DNA from: a virus
Strand: one strand, 5' to 3'
IMG/VR virus record: IMGVR_UViG_3300003790_000039
Location: 1 to 20,409 of that record
Length of the DNA: 20,409 bases
Position 1 is the stretch's first letter. Each line of letters starts with the position of its first letter. This document shows positions 1-19,020 of this stretch, one piece after another. Position numbers and translations under genes: made by a program. The notes beneath the pieces are model-generated. The model worked only from the letters and a program-made list of their open reading frames with translations. It searched no databases and was not told the DNA's origin.

Positions 1-1373
1 TCCTTGACTGGATCGACCCAGCCGCGACCGCCGAAGATGAAGCGCGCACGCAGGTAGGCGTAGCGGTTCTCGTAGAAGCCGGGCGCCTCGATCTCGCCGG
101 CATTGATCGCCTCTTCGAGCCACAGCTCATAGATGGCGCGCAGCCAGTAGTCCGACAGCCAGCGGCGGCGCCCGTGGAAGTAGCGCCAGGCTTCGAGCAG
201 CGCGGCCCGTGCGCTGCTGTAGTTCGACTTGCTGAAGTCCTTCAGCAGCAGCTCGTAAGGCAGGTTCATGCCCGCCGCGATGTGCCGCAGCGACGCCAGC
301 ATGAACGCCTCGAAGGCTTGGTTCGGGCGCCCGGGCGTGAAGCTCGACAGACGTGCACCTGCGGGCAGCGGGATGACAGCGGCGCCCTTGAGCTGGCGGA
401 TGTTGCGGGTCTGCGCGACCGAGGCATTCCACGCATCGCGCGGGTTCTCGCCGAACAGCTCGGCAGCGGACGCGGGATCGAGATCCGATTCGAGGAACGC
501 CGCGACCAGCGAATTCGCGAGGCTCGCCTGCAGCTCGTTGGCCGCGTACTTGCCGGCCATGTGGAATTCGCGCATGACGGCTGATACGACCGGCTTGCCG
601 CGCGACTGGCCGGTGCGTTCCTTGTCGTGCAGATGGATGACGCGACGACGGCCCCAGGGAGTGAAGGCGGGCACGCGGTCCCACTCCATGAACTGCGCCT
701 CCCGCGTCATGCCGTAGAAGCCGAACGCGAAGGCGTCACCCGGGTGCCGCTTGAGGATGTGGTACGCGACCGGGGCGCCCCACTTGTCGAACTCGATACC
801 CTTGCGGATGTCCTCGCGGTGCTCCATGCCGACTGGTGTCGCCAGCCGGTCGGACTCGACCATCATGAGCCGCGTGTTCCAGCGAGCGCCAGGACGGGGC
901 AGCCACAGCGGCAACGCCAGTGCGTCGCCGTTGAGCATCGCGCCGCCGAGGGCCTGCAGGGTCATGCCGAGCAGGTTCTGCGTGCGCGCGGCATCGCACT
1001 CGGGCGTTTCGGCCCAAGAGCGGAATTTGGCTTCGGTGACGTTGCCCCACTCGCGGGCCCGCTCGCGCGTCCAGCCGAGCAGGCGGTAATCGGGCGTGGC
1101 GCTCAGGCGCAGCACCGAGCCCACGATGTTGTCGCGCAGGGTCTGCATGCCGCCGGCCATCAGGCCGTTGTTGCGGCCGAGGTCGCGCGAGCGAGCGGTC
1201 AGCGTGTCGAGGTCTGGCAGCAGGTCGGCATCGGCACTGCCGGCGACAGGATTCCAGTCGCGCATCGCCAGGTCGGTGCCCGAGGCTGCATCGTGGGCGG
1301 CCATGGCTGCGCCAGGGCGTGCAGGCGCGCTGGCGCCTGCGGACGGATAGCGGTGACGGGTGCGGCGCGCCAT
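1..1373 (-). CDS. Phage portal protein, lambda gpB family (partial, 3' end outside window)
   Basis: Forms the dodecameric portal ring at the capsid vertex through which DNA is packaged and to which the tail attaches. Reading the minus strand from the ATG at 1373 gives 457 open codons running off the left edge, so the C-terminus is missing. Diagnostic lambda-portal features are an early ARSRDLGRNNG segment followed by GGMQTLRDNIVGS, and near the C-terminus the block NLPYELLLKDFSKSNYSSAR, which is highly characteristic of this family. The gene starts 1 nt after the stop of the gpW-like gene, the usual W-B order of lambdoid head operons. Long plus-strand ORFs over this stretch are antisense shadows. 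Family assignment is confident; capsid protease and scaffold genes should follow to the left. Confidence 0.93.
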   Translation of the reverse strand, partial: MARRTRHRYPSAGASAPARPGAAMAAHDAASGTDLAMRDWNPVAGSADADLLPDLDTLTARSRDLGRNNGLMAGGMQTLRDNIVGSVLRLSATPDYRLLGWTRERAREWGNVTEAKFRSWAETPECDAARTQNLLGMTLQALGGAMLNGDALALPLWLPRPGARWNTRLMMVESDRLATPVGMEHREDIRKGIEFDKWGAPVAYHILKRHPGDAFAFGFYGMTREAQFMEWDRVPAFTPWGRRRVIHLHDKERTGQSRGKPVVSAVMREFHMAGKYAANELQASLANSLVAAFLESDLDPASAAELFGENPRDAWNASVAQTRNIRQLKGAAVIPLPAGARLSSFTPGRPNQAFEAFMLASLRHIAAGMNLPYELLLKDFSKSNYSSARAALLEAWRYFHGRRRWLSDYWLRAIYELWLEEAINAGEIEAPGFYENRYAYLRARFIFGGRGWVDPVK

Positions 1374-1374
1374 C

Positions 1375-1602
1375 TCAGACTATGTAGATGGGGCCACGCG
1401 AGCTGCCGCCCGAGCGGCGGTCAAGCTCTTCGCTTATGGCGGCGATTTCCTTGCGGATCTCGGCGACGTTCTGCTGGTACTGGACAGACCGCCCGTTGTG
1501 GGCGGCGCTGGTGGGAGCGGCTAGCCGGTCCTGCAGCGACGCCATGAGGCGCGTGCGGGTGGCTTGAAGTTCAGAAACTGTGAGGTGGCGGTAAATGCCC
1601 AT
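1375..1602 (-). CDS. gpW-like head-to-tail joining protein
   Basis: A 75-residue protein directly upstream of the portal gene, the position and size of lambda gpW (68 residues), which sits below the portal and closes the head after packaging. The sequence is two helices (ELQATRTRLMASLQDRL and a C-terminal QNVAEIRKEIAAISEELDRR) joined by a short NGRSVQYQQ strand segment, matching the gpW alpha-beta-alpha pattern with its conserved R-x-V-x-Y/F hairpin. The start is the ATG at 1602. No good Shine-Dalgarno precedes it; instead an 8-bp inverted repeat ends 5 nt upstream. Normally this gene follows the terminase closely, but here about 4.4 kb of cargo plus a Mor-like gene intervene. Confidence 0.8.
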   Translation of the reverse strand: MGIYRHLTVSELQATRTRLMASLQDRLAAPTSAAHNGRSVQYQQNVAEIRKEIAAISEELDRRSGGSSRGPIYIV

Positions 1603-1732
1603 GGACGCAATGACAACAGGTCATTGCGGAATGGTCCGCGGGAACAGTTCACAAAAAGAGTTCCTCCCGTCTTACGCGGGCAATACCGCGTAGCCTGCAT
1701 AACTCCAGTTCGAAGTGGCCCGGCTAGTGAAT
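1603..1732. other. Non-coding junction with three inverted repeats between cargo and gpW
   Basis: No convincing gene is seen here. Three inverted repeats are packed into 130 bp: GCAATGAC/GTCATTGC (1607-1627, 5-nt loop, perfect), GGAAC/GTTCC (1641-1664, 14-nt loop) and TACGCGG/CCGCGTA (1673-1692, 6-nt loop, perfect). None is followed by a clear U-run in the minus direction, so I do not call an intrinsic terminator. The segment may hold a transcription or processing signal for the resuming head operon, or be the scar of cargo insertion. Confidence 0.5.
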
Positions 1733-2035
1733 CTATGCAGCGTGCCGAATGCAATACACCCAGCTGATGTCTTCGTTTGTCCCGTCTCTCCGATGTACCT
1801 GGAAGTGCTTGTTGCGATACTCATCTAGCCTGACTTCAATTCGATCTATACCGGGCCCGAACTTAGATTCCACGTCAGGATGAAAACGAAAAAGCGCGAG
1901 ACAGAAGGCCGTATCTTCTGGAGAGAGCCAAGCACCCACACGGTACCTCCCGATGAGTTCGCGCATATGCAAGGTCAGTGCCGTCTTATTTGCGAACAGC
2001 TTGCCTTGCACCTCGACAGGAATGCTCTTGCCCAT
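1733..2035 (-). CDS. DUF3223 (DCL-like) domain protein, fourth gene of the defence-type cassette
   Basis: A 100-residue protein starting 18 nt after the stop of the SMC-like ATPase gene and in the same direction, so probably co-transcribed. The C-terminal half reads FRFHPDVESKFGPGIDRIEV, then NKHFQVHRRDGTNEDISW and YCI. This resembles the DCL/DUF3223 fold known from plant DCL proteins, in which a plastid form is linked to rRNA processing (H-P-x2-E-K-x-G-x-G-I-D then a C-terminal F-x-V-x-R-x-D-G-x2-x-D-I-S pattern). Function in bacteria is not established. Its place suggests an accessory or regulatory partner, but it could be an unrelated passenger. The stop is TAG. The start at 2035 has GGGGA about 6 nt upstream. 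Confidence 0.62.
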   Translation of the reverse strand: MGKSIPVEVQGKLFANKTALTLHMRELIGRYRVGAWLSPEDTAFCLALFRFHPDVESKFGPGIDRIEVRLDEYRNKHFQVHRRDGTNEDISWVYCIRHAA

Positions 2036-2053
2036 ACAGTCCCCGGAAAAAAT

Positions 2054-3820
2054 TTAGCTTTGAGAACGCGCGGGACTTCCCAGATACATGAGCCTCTGAG
2101 AGCCCCTGAAGGTGGGCAACCACTCGACATCATTCGTACCGACTGGATGGTGATACTCGGTTGCTGAGATGATCAACTGGCCGTCGAGCCTTCCGCAAAC
2201 TTCTTGCAGAGCCTGCAAGTAAGTTGCCAAGTCGTCACTAGCTAGCTCCTGCTGCTTCGGTGTATCCAAGATCAAAAACCGGAAAGGACGGTCGGGGTCT
2301 TGAAGATAGTGCTCGAAGATGGCGGCGTGAATGGCAAGAATCAAGCGACTCCGCGTACTGCCATTAAAGGCTTCGATCGGTTGCCGACCGAAGCGAAACT
2401 TGAAGTCAAGGTCTACCTCCACATCGCGCGGCGCATTTGGCGTCCTGATGATGTCCATCCACTTCACCGTTAGGTCGCGCACCGCAAGTCGAAGCTTGTT
2501 AAATTCGAGGTCTGACTTTCCGTGATTGGATAGCGTAGCAATCCGGTCCTGAGTCCTCGCCCGCTCTTCCTCGAAGTTTATGTACTTCCGTCGCTCTTCC
2601 GTCAGACGGTCGATGGTGACGAGACGCTGCTCTACATCGAGTAGCTCCCGCGTGAGCGCCTGAGCTGTCGAGACAAGATGGCTTGTAGTGCCCGGCACAT
2701 TCTGCTGTCGCATCTTTGATGCGATGTTTGCACGCTCAGCCTCCTCCTCTTGCACCCTAGCTTCCAAGAAATCCAATTGGATCATCGCTCGATCTTCGTT
2801 CGCCTCAAGATCCTTTATTTGATCTTTAAGGTACATCAGGTTCTTGGCGTAAGAGGCCGAGCTTGATACGAAAAGTCCACAATCCTCGCGCGCGCAAATA
2901 TCAACGAAAGATTCGAACACGCGCTTCGACTCCTCGTTCAACGATAGCGTCTTAATCTCTCCTTCAATCTCGGCTCGAATGGAAGCGATCCCTGCGACCC
3001 GAGCACGCATATCCGATTGCTGGCGACGCAAGTTTCGAATCTGCTCCTCCTTCGCCTGCAGCAGCTCAAGTAAAGCGTCGTTTGCCGCACCCGCAACATC
3101 TACAGTTTCACGCAGGTTCTGAATCTGGTCATTGAGCACTTCCGCTCGCAGCTTGAGTACGTCTCGAGTTGCCGGAGCATCGTCAACGGTGGCAGATAGA
3201 TCGGTGACGATCTTTTGCTGAAACACGACGCGGCGTTGATCCAACTCGAGCTTGTCACGCGCATTTAACAAATCCCGCTGCGCGGTATATGACCGTTTCG
3301 GACCGAGCCCAAACGCGAAGCGAATCATCTCGACAAACTGGTCCGCAATAAATGCCGCTGGCGCCCGATACGGCTCATCGTAGCCGCCAATCTGTCTCAC
3401 GTAAAAGATGGGCAGCAAGGTCGATACGTACGGTCTTGTCGGCTGACGTTTGGTGTTGACAAGCGTCGGCACGTTAAGGCCCAGCTCTTCAAAAAGGGCT
3501 TTCGAGAAGTCGCCCTCAGAAAAAAATTCCTTCAAGCTACCGTCGCTTTGGGTGATGAGATGCAGGTCGGTGAAGTCTCGTTGTACGGTGTACGCACGAC
3601 CAGCATGCTCGAAGGCGAGAATCGCGGCTTGGCACTTTTCACGAATGTCACTCTGAAAGACAACATCAAAGCCGAGGCAAAACGGAATGGACTGAACGAT
3701 AGGCGTCTTACCGCTCCCGTTCGGTGCGTACAGCGACGTTGTGCGGCCGCCAAAAATTAACTGCGGGCTCTCCAACCCGTTTTCTCCTCGCGCAATGAGC
3801 TTCAGCGAAACCAGTTTCAT
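2054..3820 (-). CDS. lmuB: SMC/Rad50-like ATPase of a Lamassu/ABC-3C-type system (LmuB-like)
   Basis: A 588-residue ATPase from ATG 3820, chosen because TAGGAG lies 4 nt upstream and residues 1-12 (MKLVSLKLIARG) begin the first strand of an SMC head. Walker A is APNGSGKT at residues 32-39. A long charged coiled-coil region spans roughly residues 190-470, with a C-x4-C pair at residues 309 and 314 near its middle, recalling a zinc hook. The C-terminal half-head carries an ABC signature-like FNGSTRSRLILAI and a Walker B FLILDTPKQQEL with Asp519; the T-P after Asp replaces the classic D-E. In Lamassu the SMC protein senses DNA ends and controls the nuclease. The stop of the upstream gene overlaps this gene's Shine-Dalgarno, implying coupling. 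The family call is firm; the exact Lamassu subtype is inference. Confidence 0.82.
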   Translation of the reverse strand: MKLVSLKLIARGENGLESPQLIFGGRTTSLYAPNGSGKTPIVQSIPFCLGFDVVFQSDIREKCQAAILAFEHAGRAYTVQRDFTDLHLITQSDGSLKEFFSEGDFSKALFEELGLNVPTLVNTKRQPTRPYVSTLLPIFYVRQIGGYDEPYRAPAAFIADQFVEMIRFAFGLGPKRSYTAQRDLLNARDKLELDQRRVVFQQKIVTDLSATVDDAPATRDVLKLRAEVLNDQIQNLRETVDVAGAANDALLELLQAKEEQIRNLRRQQSDMRARVAGIASIRAEIEGEIKTLSLNEESKRVFESFVDICAREDCGLFVSSSASYAKNLMYLKDQIKDLEANEDRAMIQLDFLEARVQEEEAERANIASKMRQQNVPGTTSHLVSTAQALTRELLDVEQRLVTIDRLTEERRKYINFEEERARTQDRIATLSNHGKSDLEFNKLRLAVRDLTVKWMDIIRTPNAPRDVEVDLDFKFRFGRQPIEAFNGSTRSRLILAIHAAIFEHYLQDPDRPFRFLILDTPKQQELASDDLATYLQALQEVCGRLDGQLIISATEYHHPVGTNDVEWLPTFRGSQRLMYLGSPARSQS

Positions 3821-3827
3821 GGTGCTC

Positions 3828-4310
3828 CTAGAATTCGACTTCAGAACGGATGCGGCGCTCCGCCCTGATATTGTCAAAGCTTCTCTCAACAATCATGAGC
3901 GCGTTTGACAAAGGAGTTTCCTGCTCTAAGACGCTCGAAATAATCGTCCGCCCCCTAGGCTCAAGTGCTACGGTCCCATCGCGTACGTTCACCGCGACCA
4001 AGTTCGCACGTTCTAGAAAAGTGAGCGCCTTGACGGTTCGGATACGCAAATTTGCTGACCATCCAATGCCCTGAGACGAGTCGCGGAACCCAGAAACCGT
4101 TCGCTCAAGGCATTCGCCGACTAGTTGCCCCAGCTCCCCAAATCGTGGTTTGCTGTTTCCCTTGGCGAGTGTCAGTATCACCATCGCCAACAGGGGCAGC
4201 TGAAACAAGGCTTCGTTGTCTAGCGATGACCGATAAGCACGGTCCTCCTGCGTCTGGGGCGGTCGAATCTGCAGCCTAGAGGCTTCGCGAAAGAAGTCGT
4301 CGTAGTTCAT
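3828..4310 (-). CDS. lmuC: Winged-helix middle component of a Lamassu/ABC-3C-type system (LmuC-like)
   Basis: A 160-residue protein lying between the nuclease and the SMC ATPase genes, overlapping the former by 4 nt (ATGA at 4307-4310) and ending 7 nt before the latter. The C-terminal half looks like a winged helix: a helix RIRTVKALTFLERANLVAV followed by the hairpin NVRDGTVALEPRGR and a final helix. This size, fold and placement are those of the small middle component of ABC-three-component systems and of Lamassu LmuC, which bridges the SMC dimer and the nuclease. There are no catalytic motifs. Sequence similarity among these small proteins is low, so the identification rests mostly on the genomic context. 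Confidence 0.72.
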   Translation of the reverse strand: MNYDDFFREASRLQIRPPQTQEDRAYRSSLDNEALFQLPLLAMVILTLAKGNSKPRFGELGQLVGECLERTVSGFRDSSQGIGWSANLRIRTVKALTFLERANLVAVNVRDGTVALEPRGRTIISSVLEQETPLSNALMIVERSFDNIRAERRIRSEVEF

Positions 4311-5473
4311 TTCGAGCTTCGCCTTACCACAACTGAGCCAACTGCACCGAACAACAACTCACGGTCCAGCCTTTCAAACTTCTGCACTTCTGCAGTGGCA
4401 GCCATTTCAATCAGCAGATCGTTGAGCGATGCGAAGTCCGACGTACCTTTGAGCCACCTGCTATAGAGCGCATCAATCGACACCAGCAGCGTCTCGACAT
4501 CCATTGCTGAGTAGTTGTGGCGAGCGTTCCGCAGCCACTCGTCCCAAGCGACTTTCTGTCTAGATGCAAACTCAACCATGTTTTCGGTTGCTCCAGCGCC
4601 GCGCAGCCAACGCTGTATTACTGAAGCCTGCTTCAGCGCTTTCGAACTGGTGCCTGAAAGCAAGGCTTCGTACGCTGCACGCGAGATGCTAAGAACCCCC
4701 AGAAGATCATCTAGGCCCACGCCGATGTGGTCAGCAATTTGACTTGGGCTAATGTTTTCGAGCGGAACTCTTGACTTGCGATAAACGAGGTCCACGAGGC
4801 CGTTCGCAAGCTCCTCGGTCTCGTGAAAGTCGAGATCGATCTCGCTATATTCATAGATCGCCGAACGAGCTGCCCTGGCGAACACGTCGCGTTCTTTTCC
4901 GATGTAATCAACCGAAGGACGCAGCGAAAGCTTGCTGAGAAGAGTTGATGTCGCCTCAGCAGTTGCCTCAGGCTCCAGAACAAAAATCGCTGAGAAGTTG
5001 TCGCTTAGAAATTTCGAGGCTTTGCATTTGGGAGCCCTACCGCGCAACGCGCTGACAGCATTTACAACTTCATCGTTGAAATACACGTTCGACAGAAGCG
5101 TCACTTCGCTGCACGCTTCTTCGAAGACTATGCCGTGAAGTAGCAGCTTGCCTGCGAAACTCTTTCGAATTTTCTCAAGGCTTTCTTTGTCCTTTTGTTG
5201 GCCGCTCTTCTTGAAAGCAAAAACTTCCAAGAGACTCCACTGATGGTTGCCCTTTGCTTTTGTCTTGACCTGAAAGAAGTGATAGGTGGTTTTGCCATCG
5301 ACGACTCGGCGCACTACAAAGTCGTCCTGATAGTCGCAGTACACGCAGTCGATGCCCTTGCCTTCAAGAATCTGCAACGCCGCGTAGGCTGCGGCTTGAT
5401 ACTGCATATCGAACCGACTCGCAGTGTCGCGCCCCACGTCCTCTGCGGGGGCGACTATTTCAATGGTCTTCAC
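4307..5473 (-). CDS. lmuA: DUF4297/Cap4-type nuclease effector of a Lamassu/ABC-3C-type system (LmuA-like)
   Basis: A 388-residue protein from the GTG at 5473. The start is supported by AGGAGGG about 9 nt upstream; the open frame extends to 5707 but the extra N-terminus is basic and lacks domain features. Residues 15-25 (RDTASRFDMQY) begin a DUF4297-like N-terminal domain, then Asp47/Asp50 in YCDYQDDFVV and FFQVKTK at 66-72 give a PD-(D/E)xK-type site in its Q-x-K variant (Gln68, Lys70). The rest is helical and presumably contacts the SMC partner. In Lamassu such Cap4 nucleases cut DNA once released by SMC sensing, stopping phage replication or killing the cell. GC is lower than in the flanking phage genes (30 of 60 at 5041-5100 by hand count). 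It is the first gene of the cassette, 125 nt downstream of a LexA-type box. Confidence 0.8.
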   Translation of the reverse strand: MKTIEIVAPAEDVGRDTASRFDMQYQAAAYAALQILEGKGIDCVYCDYQDDFVVRRVVDGKTTYHFFQVKTKAKGNHQWSLLEVFAFKKSGQQKDKESLEKIRKSFAGKLLLHGIVFEEACSEVTLLSNVYFNDEVVNAVSALRGRAPKCKASKFLSDNFSAIFVLEPEATAEATSTLLSKLSLRPSVDYIGKERDVFARAARSAIYEYSEIDLDFHETEELANGLVDLVYRKSRVPLENISPSQIADHIGVGLDDLLGVLSISRAAYEALLSGTSSKALKQASVIQRWLRGAGATENMVEFASRQKVAWDEWLRNARHNYSAMDVETLLVSIDALYSRWLKGTSDFASLNDLLIEMAATAEVQKFERLDRELLFGAVGSVVVRRSSK

Positions 5474-5597
5474 GTGCGCAACCCTCCTCGGCCGCCACTT
5501 ACATGCGTAGCGCAAGGTTTGTAACACATCGTGAATAGAGCGGCGTACTCGTTTCTTCCTAATTTTCAGCGCCGGCATGGGTAGGAATCCGATTGGA

Positions 5598-5613
5598 CTG
5601 TTTTTTTGTACAG
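5598..5613 (-). promoter_or_regulatory. LexA-type SOS box (CTGT-N8-ACAG) upstream of the defence cassette
   Basis: The 16-bp element has perfect CTGT and ACAG arms with an AT-rich 8-nt centre, and on the minus strand is preceded by TA, matching the classic TACTGT-N8-ACAG LexA site used in gamma- and betaproteobacteria. It lies 125 nt before the GTG of the nuclease gene, in the only gap between the Mor-like gene and the cassette. A TTGGAC hexamer at 5636-5631 could be a -35 element just upstream, with the box over the -10 region, but I see no good -10. No plus-strand gene would be controlled by it. Confidence 0.6.
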
Positions 5614-5630
5614 TATTTTTAACGCTATGT

Positions 5631-5644
5631 CCAACGGTCGTTGG
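5631..5644. repeat. Short palindrome next to the LexA-type box
   Basis: CCAACG and CGTTGG arms separated by 2 nt form a 14-bp palindrome, 18 bp from the LexA-type box and between the end of the Mor-like gene and the cassette. There is no U-run, so it is unlikely to be a terminator. It could be an operator for a second regulator of the cassette, for example the adjacent Mor-like protein. Confidence 0.4.
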
Positions 5645-5707
5645 CTGGGCATCTCGGCGCTCACTTCCGGATATCTCCCCGCAACACATGCGAGGTCGCA
5701 ACGCCAA

Positions 5708-6025
5708 CTACGGCTTCGAACCATTGCCGGGCTGCCGCCCCGCGGCGAGGATCCTTCTGACATATCGCGGTGTCACGTCGTACTCCTTTGCAAGCTCAAA
5801 GAGGTTACGTCCGTTAAATCGCAGCACGATCTCGCGCGGAACCCTCTGGCGCTCCTTCAACGTGCGCTTAGGCAAATACAGATGTGCGCCACCTAACCGA
5901 AAGATGAGCCGCTCCATCAGCGATGCCGCAGCGTCCTCGGCCGCAGCCACACCAAAGGCTCGCGCCACCGCGCATGCCTCTTCTTCAATGATCGCCATGG
6001 GATCGTGGGGAGTCTCGTCAGTCAT
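5708..6025 (-). CDS. Mor-family-like transcription activator
   Basis: A 105-residue DNA-binding protein. After an N-terminal helical, likely dimerising segment comes GGAHLYLPK followed by a basic stretch and REIVLRFNGRNLFELAKEYD, then VTPRYVRRIL. The G-G-x-x-x-Y-x-P-K, F-N-G-R-N and L-A-x-x-Y-x-V-T-x-x-x-V-x-R-I-L pattern is that of Mor/C activators, first described in phage Mu, where Mor activates middle transcription. The start codon lies 2 nt after the TerL stop, so it is read from the same mRNA by reinitiation. It is the last phage gene before the defence cassette. It could activate head and tail transcription downstream or the cassette itself; neither can be shown from sequence. Confidence 0.66.
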   Translation of the reverse strand: MTDETPHDPMAIIEEEACAVARAFGVAAAEDAAASLMERLIFRLGGAHLYLPKRTLKERQRVPREIVLRFNGRNLFELAKEYDVTPRYVRRILAAGRQPGNGSKP

Positions 6026-6027
6026 GT

Positions 6028-8085
6028 TCAGTACAAAGCAATGGGAGTGAAGACATCAACGTCGGATCCGTGCGCATCAGATAAAGGGGCCAATCGCACG
6101 AGAGGGGTTGTCGGAGAGTGCCTAGCCGGGGGTGCCGCCTGCGCACCTTCGCTGGTCGGTGTCGAAGAGAACAGATCGCGTGAAGGCTGCACCGCTGCTT
6201 CAAGGTCGGCCCAGCGCTTGTCGCTGTGGTTGTGCAGTCCGAGGCCAAAAGCCGCATGCAACGCGTAGTTGCGGTTGTCAAGCACCTCGTTGCGCGGCCG
6301 GCGCTTCACCCAGCGAAAGACCTCCTTACCGTTGACCTTCACAAGGATGCGCTGCTCGGCCGTGAGCTGCTCGAACCACTCGCGCGGCAACTCCGAGCTG
6401 AAGTGAATAAAGCCGGGGCCAGGCTGCTCGATGGCGAGCTGCCCGAGCAGCAGATCCTTCGCCGTATCAACGCCGACATTCCAGAGCTTGATACCGTTTG
6501 GAATCTTCTTCCCGTTGAACCGCACCTCCTGCGGGCTGCTCGGCCCGAGCACGGGCACGTTGTCTTCGCCTCGCCCCTTCACGGCGCGCAGCTTGGGCAA
6601 CAGGTGCTGCGTCTTGCGCACCCAGTTGTAGACCGCCTGCGTCTGGTCGCTCGAATCGATGGAGATGGCGCTCAGTCCCAAGGAGCCGCCGTGCCAGGCC
6701 TGCACATAGCGGCCGGAGAGGTAGGCCGTCACCGGCGCCCAGTCGTCTTCAGACGCGGGGTTGCCGTAGATCACATGGTGCTCGACATGCCATGACTCGA
6801 GTCCGCGGCCCCATGCCCATACGTCGATCTCCCAGCGGTCGCGCTGCACGTCCACTCCGGCCGTGAGCACGAGGCCGCCGGCGGGCACGGTCCTGAGCGC
6901 ATAGGGCTCGGCACGCAACTGCAGGGCGTGTTCATCGGTGCGCTCGCCGACGACTTCCCATGTTTCGCCAAGCGTCTCATTGACGAAGAGCTGCATGGGG
7001 CCGGCATCGCCGCGTGCGAGCGCGTCGCATGCTTCTTCGAATTCCTTGACGATGCTTTCCCAGGTGCGCTGGGGGCTGTAAGCCGCCCACACATGCAGGC
7101 CGAGGCTTTGTGGCGGGCGCGTCGGCATGCCGGCGGCATCGCGCCAGACGCGATCGGGCCCGAAGGTCTTGCCGGTCTTCTCGCACACCCAGCGGCCGGG
7201 CATCGGCAAGCCGCCTTGCAGAAAGTCGCTCTGCCGAATGGGCTTGCGGCAGTGCGGGCAGACATGGCGCACGCTGGCCGGGTTGCCGCGCTCCCATTTG
7301 AAACCGTGGAGCTTTTCCTTGCCGCCCCACGAAAGCGGGTGCTCAAGGCCGCAATGCTTGCAGTCGATGTAGAAGCGAACGAAGCCGGCCGCATTCAAGG
7401 CAGCGCGCTCGACGTGACACAGGCCCTTCACGCCAGGCGTGGAGCCGCCAACGAACTTCGGATACGGGGCGCCCTCAAGACGGCCCTTCGCCAAGCCGCC
7501 GGGGTCGCCCGATTTCTCGATGGTCTGGTCAAAGGCCGACCACTCGTCGAGGATCGAGATGGCCACGGTGATGCGGCGATAGGCGCGCTTCGCCTTGCCG
7601 CCCAGCAGATGAAGCACGCTGTCGCGAAACTTCTTCATCTTGATGGTGTCGTCGTTGCCGCCACCCTTGCGGCGAGCAGCCTGCACGGAAGGCACACCGT
7701 CGCGCGCATCGAGGATGGGGTCGATCTCGCTCTTGACGTAGCTGTCGCGATCGTCGTCTGTCGGCTGCCAGAGTGCCTGTTTGCGACGGCGGTGCGCGAT
7801 GTTGTAGGCCACGAAGGCGGTAATCATCTTCGTGTAGCCGACGCGCTTCGACTTCATCACGTCGAGCTCTTCGATGCGGTCATCACTCATGAAGTCGAGG
7901 ATGCCGACTTGAAACGACCAGGCGATCCAGCCGCCCTTCTGGTGCGAGCTTTCACCAGCGAGCTTGAAGTGATCGGCGGCCCATTCGCTGAGCGTCTGGA
8001 AGACCTCCGCGCGCAGACTGCCGAGGCCGAGGGTCACGGCGTGAAGCACTGCCGTGAATGTTTCACGCGAAACGTGTGCGGCCAT
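6028..8085 (-). CDS. terL: Phage terminase large subunit, lambda gpA family
   Basis: The motor and nuclease that cuts concatemers and pumps DNA into the prohead. The 685-residue protein starts at ATG 8085, which overlaps the TerS stop (TGATG); a GGAGG lies about 10 nt upstream, and the longer frame to 8196 is a low-complexity Arg/Gly read-through. The gpA-type Walker A KSKRVGYTK is at residues 78-86. A zinc-binding set, CKHC at 242-245 and CPHC at 276-279, is also typical of GpA. The C-terminal nuclease begins with TAGVDVQRDRWEID (Asp412) and continues with SIDSSDQTQAVYNW. The protein ends with a divergent proline-rich tail. Packaging by this family is usually cos-type; no cos site can be identified by eye. 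Confidence 0.95.
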   Translation of the reverse strand: MAAHVSRETFTAVLHAVTLGLGSLRAEVFQTLSEWAADHFKLAGESSHQKGGWIAWSFQVGILDFMSDDRIEELDVMKSKRVGYTKMITAFVAYNIAHRRRKQALWQPTDDDRDSYVKSEIDPILDARDGVPSVQAARRKGGGNDDTIKMKKFRDSVLHLLGGKAKRAYRRITVAISILDEWSAFDQTIEKSGDPGGLAKGRLEGAPYPKFVGGSTPGVKGLCHVERAALNAAGFVRFYIDCKHCGLEHPLSWGGKEKLHGFKWERGNPASVRHVCPHCRKPIRQSDFLQGGLPMPGRWVCEKTGKTFGPDRVWRDAAGMPTRPPQSLGLHVWAAYSPQRTWESIVKEFEEACDALARGDAGPMQLFVNETLGETWEVVGERTDEHALQLRAEPYALRTVPAGGLVLTAGVDVQRDRWEIDVWAWGRGLESWHVEHHVIYGNPASEDDWAPVTAYLSGRYVQAWHGGSLGLSAISIDSSDQTQAVYNWVRKTQHLLPKLRAVKGRGEDNVPVLGPSSPQEVRFNGKKIPNGIKLWNVGVDTAKDLLLGQLAIEQPGPGFIHFSSELPREWFEQLTAEQRILVKVNGKEVFRWVKRRPRNEVLDNRNYALHAAFGLGLHNHSDKRWADLEAAVQPSRDLFSSTPTSEGAQAAPPARHSPTTPLVRLAPLSDAHGSDVDVFTPIALY

Positions 8086-8642
8086 CAGGTCGATGCCTCC
8101 GCTTCGTCTTCGATTGCTCCGCCCTCGTCTTCGTCCGCCTCTCGACTCATCCTGTCCAACTCCGACGCGACGAGCTTCTCGGTGGAGCGAATCCATTCAT
8201 TGCGCGCGTTGGCGATCACCTGCTGCAGCGTGGCCTTCGCTTCGTCCGGCAGATCCGGGCATGCCTTGCGCAGCGCGCCCTCCAGTTGCTCGAAGCGATC
8301 AACGACTGCGCTCGACGCCATGCCGAGCACGTCGGCGAGCAGACCGATTGGCGCGAACTCGCCGCGGGCCACAGCATTCTTGATCTCCTGCGCCTCGCGC
8401 TGACTGCGAGCCAGGGCGGCGCGCTCTTGAACGAGGTCGAGTCCGCCCAGCTCACCCGAGGCCCGACCGGCAGCGACCTCGCGCAGCCGCTCGCAGTAGG
8501 CGAGCAGCCATGCGTGCGCGGTCTGGCCGCGCTCGATCACGCCTTCGGCGACCAGTTGGCTGACCTTCGCCTCGCTCACGCCGATGATGGCCGCGAACTC
8601 GGCCTGCGTGATGCCGACTCCCATAGCCTCAACTACCTTCAC
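8085..8642 (-). CDS. terS: Phage terminase small subunit, Nu1-like
   Basis: A 185-residue DNA-recognition subunit. Residues 10-34 form a MerR/Nu1-type helix-turn-helix (GITQAEFAAIIGVSEAKVSQL, then VAEGVI), followed by a helical LAYCERLREVAAG segment and a long charged helix (LVQERAALARSQREAQEIKN) for oligomerisation. The acidic C-terminus (DEDEGGAIEDEAEAST) probably docks TerL. The start is GTG 8642, in the context AAGTGAAGG with a G-rich stretch 7-11 nt upstream, and it overlaps the stop of a small upstream ORF. The stop overlaps the TerL start. Confidence 0.88.
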   Translation of the reverse strand: MKVVEAMGVGITQAEFAAIIGVSEAKVSQLVAEGVIERGQTAHAWLLAYCERLREVAAGRASGELGGLDLVQERAALARSQREAQEIKNAVARGEFAPIGLLADVLGMASSAVVDRFEQLEGALRKACPDLPDEAKATLQQVIANARNEWIRSTEKLVASELDRMSREADEDEGGAIEDEAEAST

Positions 8643-11655: not shown

Positions 11656-11973
11656 TCAATCACGTGGACCGCCCTCTTGCGATGTCTCACAACCCGGAGG
11701 CCAGCCGCGGACATGACGCCACGGCACATCAGGCCGAATTGCCTCGCAGTGCACAACGCAGCCCCTCGCCCTCGTCGCCCCCTCTAACGCAGGGCAATGC
11801 TCCGCAGGCACCAATCCCACTTTGAGCCAGTGCGAAAAATGCCCCTGGGTCTTTCCGCACGCGGCGCCCGCAGCAGCTTGGCTACCCATGACCGAAGCAA
11901 TGCGTAGCAGCACCTCACGGGTCCGCTCTCGGAAGGACTCATCGTCCGGGCTCGGTTGTTTTGGCTTGCTCAT
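11656..11973 (-). CDS. Cro-like repressor, YdaS/Cro family
   Basis: A 105-residue protein starting at ATG 11973, divergent from cI across the operator region. The helix-turn-helix is VMGSQAAAGAACGKTQGHF followed by SHWLKVGLVPAEHCPALEGA and a tail VVHCEAIRPDVPW. The V-P-A-E-x-C-P-x-I/L-E-x-A-T and L/I-R-P-D-V-x-W signatures are those of YdaS-like Cro proteins. It should bind the same TACAAA/TTTGTA operators as CI and commit the phage to lytic growth. The ATG overlaps operator O_R1; with -10 TACAAA at 11988-11983, the transcript would begin only a few nt upstream of the ATG, so translation may be nearly leaderless. Confidence 0.78.
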   Translation of the reverse strand: MSKPKQPSPDDESFRERTREVLLRIASVMGSQAAAGAACGKTQGHFSHWLKVGLVPAEHCPALEGATRARGCVVHCEAIRPDVPWRHVRGWPPGCETSQEGGPRD

Positions 11974-12034
11974 ACAAGCCTGTTTGTAATCGACTACAAA
12001 TGAATTTGCAACCCCAACAACAAACCCGTTTGTA
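11973..12034. promoter_or_regulatory. O_R operator triplet between cro and cI, with the leftward early promoter
   Basis: Three 16-bp sites match TACAAA-N4-TTTGTA with one mismatch each: 11973-11988 (left arm TACAAG), 11995-12010 (right arm TTTGCA) and 12019-12034 (left arm AACAAA). Centre-to-centre spacing is 22 and 24 bp, about two helical turns, like lambda O_R1-3. A minus-strand promoter fits over the first two sites: -35 TTGCAA at 12011-12006, a 17-bp spacer, and -10 TACAAA at 11988-11983. A plus-strand maintenance promoter for cI must overlap the sites but is less clear; TTGGCT, 18 bp, TGTAAT (ending 11990) is one possibility. Confidence 0.75.
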
Positions 12035-12794: not shown

Positions 12795-13324
12795 AGGCTT
12801 GGGCCATTACTGGAATGCTTGCGGCCAGCCTGAGCGCAAGCGCGCAGGTTGCCTGCACCATGCCCAACGGCCGCACCATCACCCTCAACCTGACGCATAC
12901 GTGTCCGGCGGGAGCGACCGGAGCGAAGTCACTCGACGGTCAGCCAGTGCAGATTGCGCAGCCTGCTGCCAGCACTGCTCAAGTCCCGCCCTCGAAGCCC
13001 TCGGCGCCGGCCACCTCCGCGATGACCAACTCGAAGCCTGCCACGCGGCCTGATGGCTCCCACATCGTCAGTCGTGCATCTTCGGCAGGTTGCGTGAGCA
13101 AGGAGGCCTACGAGCAGCTCACGAAGATTGCCGTACAGGGCGACAAGGAAGCCTTCTCGCGAGCGCTGGCAGCTGGAGTGCTCTCGGGCCAATGCATGAT
13201 CTTTAGCCGCGGGGCGGTCGTGTTCATAGATGACACAGCCATCTTTTCTGGCTTAGTGCGCTTGCGGCCGCAAGGGCAGGTGCAGGCCTACTGGACCGCA
13301 ATGGAGACCATTTCTACAAACTGA
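12791..13324 (+). CDS. Secreted protein co-expressed with CI; candidate lysogenic-conversion gene
   Basis: A 177-residue protein whose ATG overlaps the cI stop by 4 nt, so it should be made in the lysogen. Residues 1-19 form a Sec signal peptide (MKAWAITGMLAASLSASAQ) with a likely cleavage after ASA. The mature part has paired cysteines in CTMPNGRTITLNLTHTC, a Pro/Ser/Ala-rich linker at about residues 53-90, and a C-terminal domain from GCVSKEAYEQLTKI to about VFIDDTAIFSGLVRLRP, with one Cys at each end of its helical part. No family is recognised. An export-directed product from the repressor operon suggests a periplasmic or envelope role such as superinfection exclusion or host conversion; this is inference. 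Its stop lies within the first O_L site. Confidence 0.75.
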   Translation: MKAWAITGMLAASLSASAQVACTMPNGRTITLNLTHTCPAGATGAKSLDGQPVQIAQPAASTAQVPPSKPSAPATSAMTNSKPATRPDGSHIVSRASSAGCVSKEAYEQLTKIAVQGDKEAFSRALAAGVLSGQCMIFSRGAVVFIDDTAIFSGLVRLRPQGQVQAYWTAMETISTN

Positions 13325-13375
13325 TCTGTAGAACTACAAAGCAACTTGTTGACGACATCTACAAATTGATTTGTA
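13315..13375. promoter_or_regulatory. O_L operator triplet downstream of the cI operon
   Basis: Three 16-bp sites of the same form as at O_R: 13315-13330 (right arm TCTGTA, one mismatch), 13335-13350 (TACAAA with a weaker right arm CTTGTT) and 13360-13375 (both arms perfect). Spacing is 20 and 25 bp. The first site overlaps the stop codon of the secreted-protein gene. The set implies CI/Cro repression of the plus-strand early operon and potential looping with O_R about 1.3 kb away, as lambda CI does over 2.4 kb. Confidence 0.75.
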
Positions 13376-18189: not shown

Positions 18190-19020
18190 ATGCAGCCCTT
18201 CGATTTCCAACCCACAGGAATTCTCTTGAGCACTGAATACCCAGAGTTTTTTTACAAATACCGCGGCATTTCCAATCACGGAGAATTCGAAAAAGATTAC
18301 TCAATCGATGCGTTAATCAAAAACAAGGCAATTTTTTCGACGCGCACGAATTTTAACGATCTGTTTGATTCAAAAATTGAGCTTATAACCCCCACCCCTC
18401 GACAGGTGAAAACATTAGGCGACTCGCTCGACAAAAATAGAAAGGCCTTTTTTCGCTCTCTTATTAATCACGGTAAATTTACCGACGATGGGGCGAACTA
18501 TATTGAGAGATTAAAAAGAGAATTAAATTCACTCATCGATAGCTACAATTTCTTCTGCGTGTCGTCGCGAGCAGATAGCAATCTAATGTGGTCGCACTAT
18601 GGTGACTGCCATCGTGGGTTTTGCATCGAATTCAAGGCCGCAAACATCCGGGCAGATAAAGTGATTTATCAGAAGACCATACCTCAAGTCAAAGTGATTG
18701 AATTGATGAAGGTAAGCGCAGGCGTAGGCAACGAGGCTTTAGGAGGGGAAATTTGGACGGCGCTAAGAACCAAGCTCGACGAGTGGGCCTACGAGCAAGA
18801 GTATCGTTTTCAAGCGGGAACGGATATGCCCAGCCCAAAGGGTCAAAAATTTATTCCTCGCACGTATCAGCCAGATTGGATTGAATCCATCATTTTCGGC
18901 TGCAAAATGCCTCAATCGACCCGCGATAAGATCGTTAAGCTAATGCCCGAGAATACCAAGTTCAAAATGGCAGTGGAAAAAATCAGCACCGTCGAAATAG
19001 TGCCCTACAAGCGCAAATAG
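18190..19020 (+). CDS. DUF2971 domain protein, AT-rich cargo gene
   Basis: A 276-residue protein with DUF2971 hallmarks: FFYKYRGIS near the N-terminus, FSTRTNFNDLFDS, FFCVSSRADSNLMWSHYGDC, HRGFCIEF, WAYEQEYRF, and IESIIFGCKM. The biochemical function of this family is not firmly known; members are frequent in prophages and defence islands. Base use differs sharply from the neighbours: 22 of 60 are G or C at 18301-18360, against 41 of 60 at 16321-16380 (hand counts). It is packed tail-to-tail against int with only 3 nt between stops, a typical moron position. It could be a defence or conversion gene. The start at 18190 is preceded by a weak GAAG; TTG 18226 is an alternative. Confidence 0.78.
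   Translation: MQPFDFQPTGILLSTEYPEFFYKYRGISNHGEFEKDYSIDALIKNKAIFSTRTNFNDLFDSKIELITPTPRQVKTLGDSLDKNRKAFFRSLINHGKFTDDGANYIERLKRELNSLIDSYNFFCVSSRADSNLMWSHYGDCHRGFCIEFKAANIRADKVIYQKTIPQVKVIELMKVSAGVGNEALGGEIWTALRTKLDEWAYEQEYRFQAGTDMPSPKGQKFIPRTYQPDWIESIIFGCKMPQSTRDKIVKLMPENTKFKMAVEKISTVEIVPYKRK

Follow-up and report, generated by a model that had tools for sequence, protein, structure and literature searches.

Can a nuclease-based defence system carried by a prophage be switched by LexA, the SOS regulator of the host? The question is raised by a virus contig of 20,409 bp (called here the window, meaning the whole stretch of DNA that was analysed), in which a sequence-only reading had noted a perfect CTGT-N8-ACAG ahead of a Lamassu-like cassette. 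From the box, the geometry of its promoter, the gene content of the locus, and the recurrence of the box before other lmuA genes, all of which are observed, we consider it very likely that the box is a host LexA operator at the promoter of lmuA-lmuC-lmuB-DUF3223, where repression by LexA would be relieved by DNA damage.

A Lamassu-Cap4 cassette in a defence cargo site

The record is 100% identical to positions 23607-44015 of a contig of 44,054 bp, in which an 82-bp direct repeat (90% identical), situated at the 3' end of a tRNA-Ser, lies at both sides of the element. The gene order is that of a lambda-like prophage: terminase small subunit; terminase large subunit; Mor-like gene; box; Lamassu; DUF3223; gpW-like gene; and portal (Table 1). 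The cassette is Lamassu-Cap4 with the operon order A-C-B: LmuA carries a known effector domain, LmuB has a Walker A motif (GSGKT) with its residues conserved, and LmuC is encoded between the two, its gene overlapping the end of lmuA by 4 nt. The Lamassu-like identity given by the sequence-only reading is borne out by PADLOC, which assigns all three proteins to Lamassu; no solved structure with sequence similarity was found. The DUF3223 gene is probably the fourth gene of the cassette, and its product possibly a fourth Lamassu component: such a gene also stands directly 3' of lmuB in another prophage (L032, 5000-5356; match 2e-14), and both loci are boxed. PADLOC labels the DUF3223 domain as HamC of Hachiman. 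The start of lmuA was placed at the GTG at 5473, which aligns with the start residue of an annotated Cupriavidus homologue. Longer in-frame starts exist (an ATG giving MPALKIR, and a TTG at 5707), but they have neither a clear ribosome site nor the support of this homologue.

Table 1. Features of the window around the defence cassette, with the evidence for each.
Feature	Position	Strand	Evidence
Portal protein, incomplete at window edge	3..1373	-	Pfam Phage_portal_2 1.2e-100
gpW-like head-joining gene, right cargo border	1375..1602	-	Place before portal and conservation in relatives
DUF3223 protein gene	1733..2035	-	Pfam 4e-14; PADLOC HamC-type 4e-21
lmuB, SMC/Rad50-like ATPase	2054..3820	-	PADLOC LmuB 1.5e-219; weak Pfam SMC_N and Rad50
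lmuC, small middle component	3828..4310	-	PADLOC LmuC 6.2e-62
lmuA, Cap4-type nuclease effector, 388 aa, GTG start	4307..5473	-	Pfam Cap4_nuclease 1.3e-12; PADLOC LmuA 2.8e-149
Ribosome-binding sequence GAGGAGG	5483..5489	-	Read directly; 9 nt ahead of GTG
LexA (SOS) box, predicted	core 5598..5613	.	Exact match and matrix score
Candidate -10 TACAAA (4/6), within LexA box	5605..5610	-	Consensus match only
Candidate -35 TGGACA (5/6)	5628..5633	-	Consensus match only
Mor-like late transcription activator gene, left cargo border	5708..6025	-	Pfam Mor 4e-12; PHROG late activator
Terminase large subunit	6028..8196	-	Pfam GpA_ATPase and GpA_nuclease

The stretch from terminase/Mor-like to gpW/portal is variable, measuring 0.4-6.7 kb, in roughly 30 of 80 related phage loci. 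The cargo recognised there by PADLOC comprises DSR2-like, ThsA, DRT UG17, retron RT type IV, PD-Lambda-5, AbiLi, HerA-like, and others; PDC-M48 and unknown genes also occupy this position among the loci (L036-L097). In this family of lambda-like prophages, window positions 1375-6025 correspond to a site for defence cargo. On its left border a Mor-like gene comes after the terminase in many relatives; the gpW-like gene on its right has no Pfam match. Similarity to the relatives breaks off inside the Mor-like gene, which assigns the box-bearing gap to the cargo; a reading of the box as a feature of the phage backbone was accordingly ruled out. One other cargo at this site (L095, 9599-12655) encodes an NA37 nucleoid protein, a RelA/SpoT-domain protein, and a small membrane-like protein, and has a LexA-type box of its own at the same place, which scores 21.5 and is the only site of at least 19 across 954 kb of DNA from related phages; it is a possible SOS-gated defence cassette.

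A DUF2971 protein (window 18190-19017), listed by PADLOC as candidate defence PDC-S31 (5.6e-42), adjoins the integrase, and the 44-kb contig of the same prophage (L119) has a GmrSD-type gene at 705-2603, near the left attachment repeat. Just behind the latter is a fragment resembling a tRNA 3' end, perhaps the trace of a second, nested insertion.

The box, its candidate promoter, and its probable repressor

The box is an exact CTGT-N8-ACAG, CTGTTTTTTTGTACAG, exactly where the sequence-only reading had put it and the sole exact copy in the window; its extended 20-mer is GACTGTTTTTTTGTACAGTA (5596-5615). The centre is AT-rich and the palindrome is that of a beta/gammaproteobacterial-type LexA operator. 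In agreement with the earlier claim, the box falls in the intergenic gap before the nuclease gene, a gap of ca. 231-234 bp between the end of the Mor-like gene (5708) and the GTG of lmuA, with the core 125-140 bp ahead of the start codon. It has a single plausible target: the Mor-like gene ends upstream and Lamassu lies downstream on the same strand.

Could such a sequence have arisen by chance, and resemble a LexA site without binding LexA? At least one exact core was present somewhere in 21 of 100 shuffles of the whole window, so the bare 16-mer pattern alone is weak evidence. Against chance, an exact core is expected in a composition-matched copy of the gap with P ~0.0015, and the 20-bp matrix score of the box is 19.4 versus 13.8-27.2 for the E. 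coli sites themselves, on a matrix built from 17 textbook E. coli LexA boxes that serves as a yardstick. With the same E. coli matrix the runner-up in the window reaches 6.7, and the highest score in 60 simulated windows was 12.9; counts of exact cores are independent of this matrix. Because of the gap probability together with a score in the E. coli range, position and flanks turn the box into strong evidence.

The sequence-only reading had set the box upstream of the defence cassette, and we find that it overlaps the only promoter-like pair on the cassette strand in the region, TGGACA-17-TACAAA, a consensus match with 17-bp spacing. Its -10 hexamer lies within the box, as is usual where LexA represses. 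The two candidate hexamers are mediocre (9/12 to consensus), and a stricter promoter scan gave no promoter, this pair included. In the boxed prophage L032 a good-looking promoter stands downstream of the box; both points count against the LexA reading.

No terminator was detected in the gap between the Mor-like gene and lmuA, and by its position the cassette is part of the late operon, flanked by terminase/Mor-like and portal and encoded on the same strand. The sequence-only reading had the cassette rise exactly when the prophage is induced; because of this position, read-through at induction would raise it with or without LexA, and may supplement or overrule LexA control. The LexA site might then be real but secondary, fine-tuning a cassette dominated by the late promoter or tying it to the lytic cycle. 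We regard this as unlikely: it leaves unexplained the boxes found elsewhere, namely next to an integrase in L032, between portal and gpA in L135, and on a Photobacterium contig.

As to the type of repressor, CTGTatatatatACAG is the motif bound by most LexA proteins of beta- and gammaproteobacteria (PMC3108266). The 44-kb contig has exactly two exact CTGT-N8-ACAG cores, the lmuA box and one that precedes an operon whose last gene is SRAP, and it contains no LexA motif of the xanthomonad or alpha type. Since SRAP is SOS-associated, CTGT-N8-ACAG is probably the motif that applies in this host. The SRAP DNA resembles Burkholderiales and Pseudomonas DNA; the repressor region resembles an Acidovorax phage; and a 23S probe, GCCTTCCCACTTCGTTT, matched none of 36 genomes. 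The LexA of the host is probably compatible with the box.

A phage-borne cassette might also answer to the prophage's own CI or Cro, and one TACAAA half within the box does resemble a phage half-site. The presumed phage operators, which read TACAARC-N2-GTTTGTA, lie in clusters at 11973-12034 and 13315-13375. Even with up to 3 mismatches allowed, the box fails to fit this sequence, and we rejected it as a CI operator. Moreover, homologues on unrelated elements have the LexA motif in common and not the phage operator motif, which makes an operator of CI or Cro exceedingly improbable. The presumed operators form two triplets of palindromes, one on each side of the S24 repressor gene region, in the manner of lambda OR and OL.

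Recurrence upstream of lmuA relatives

LmuA relatives were collected from genomes, virus contigs, and one plasmid by means of several sequence probes, giving a small set of 20 distinct loci; phage and plasmid collections yielded almost no relatives. Exact cores stand upstream of lmuA at -140 (window), -166 (L007, a Photobacterium sanguinicancri contig), -146 (L032, a prophage with the boxed Lamassu beside the integrase), -175 (L135, a P2-like prophage with the boxed Lamassu between portal and gpA), and -347 (L158), and L159 has a box with one mismatch at ca. -190. The L158 box was set aside as lmuA control: an integron integrase (TIGR02249, 1.6e-93) faces it, and the box probably belongs to intI. 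This leaves four exact promoter boxes and one near-exact box among the 20 loci. Outside the lmuA upstream regions of the same loci we counted 3 exact cores over a total of 221 kb (0.0054 per 400 bp); at this background the binomial probability of exact cores at 5 of 20 loci (integron-linked L158 included) is 7e-8, and that of the four cases left on its exclusion ca. 4e-6 by the same arithmetic. A chance resemblance, on whose side stands the lack of a box in most homologues, is made very improbable by this recurrence, by the gap probability, and by a matrix score far above the simulations.

The scan for a box at the same distance in homologous cassettes, proposed by the sequence-only reading, was thus positive at four loci (window included) and nearly so at L159, while conservation in all homologues was rejected: the closest relative, on a Cupriavidus plasmid (64% identity), and most other homologues have no box. 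Other Cap4 nuclease genes of Vibrionaceae had none in 10 cases, with no site above 12. Because the presence of the box requires six changes on the LmuA tree and is not clustered there, the box has been gained or lost repeatedly and is no signature of the family. The arrangement had been called unusual for a Lamassu-like system; it is not a one-off, recurring in this lmuA type, and it is also no general property, the closest relative being without it. We think it fairly likely that direct control by LexA has been acquired repeatedly by some of the Lamassu-Cap4 systems on unrelated prophages and islands, and that prophage cargo sites can take up SOS-gated defence modules, Lamassu here and the NA37 + RelA/SpoT cassette in L095. 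Judging from these sequences, a switch triggered by damage is probably an arrangement that recurs rather than an accident.

At three loci Lamassu genes lie close to SOS boxes that belong, or in L158 probably belong, to neighbouring genes. At L158 (3357-5830) the Lamassu operon adjoins the integron integrase, the box lies between the two, and the Lamassu may be integron-borne. Boxes at L031 were rejected as lmuA control, since they belong to a umuDC operon and a downstream DNA methylase-like gene. On the virus contig L022 (3905-7619) the Lamassu genes come right after an SOS-boxed umuDC operon, and SOS control by read-through is possible there.

Proposed control and known systems

In the proposed control, whose steps of binding, repression, induction, and benefit are drawn from known LexA and Lamassu biology, LexA on the box would cover the -10 region of the lmuA-lmuC-lmuB-DUF3223 promoter and hold the potentially lethal Cap4 nuclease system low in the quiet lysogen. 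Damage to DNA, whether by an incoming phage, restriction fragments, or genotoxic stress, would lead to RecA filaments and self-cleavage of LexA, whereupon the promoter would open and Lamassu be made. The SMC-like sensor LmuB would then gate the firing of the nuclease, as reviews of Lamassu indicate (PMC10586767).

If this is true, an abortive nuclease defence joins the SOS regulon without a dedicated regulator, and the direct use of LexA would be a simpler way to silence a suicidal defence than the three families of dedicated damage-sensing regulators known for other systems. SOS-inducing drugs or restriction could then arm Lamassu. It would also pose a puzzle, namely that the signal arming Lamassu induces its carrier prophage as well. 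The boxed lmuA loci offer testable promoters from several bacteria. In the literature searched, which included few subscription papers and preprints, no LexA-Lamassu control was found (a paper on AbpAB mentions both, on another matter); damage-responsive control of defence is itself already known.

SOS-controlled colicin and tisB-type toxin genes have a lethal product that is repressed by LexA and freed by damage. The cassette would resemble them in placing a lethal product under LexA, and differs in that Lamassu, once expressed, still requires another trigger, which LmuB senses. With Lamassu as described (LmuABC; DdmABC of Vibrio cholerae; ABC-3C) it shares a Cap4 LmuA, a small LmuC, an SMC/Rad50-like LmuB, and the same operon order (PMC10586767), to which the window adds the predicted LexA box in the promoter and DUF3223 as a probable fourth gene. 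LexA-controlled integron integrases likewise show genes of mobile elements brought repeatedly under host LexA through CTGT-N8-ACAG, but there the target of LexA is a recombinase and not a defence system (PMC3108266). Similar in logic are the defence operons controlled by CapW/BrxR, CapH+CapP, and CapK+CapS, kept low and raised by DNA damage (PMC13373217). Those regulators are dedicated and encoded beside the operon, whereas the window has no regulator gene between box and cassette, and it is the global LexA that we propose for the part.
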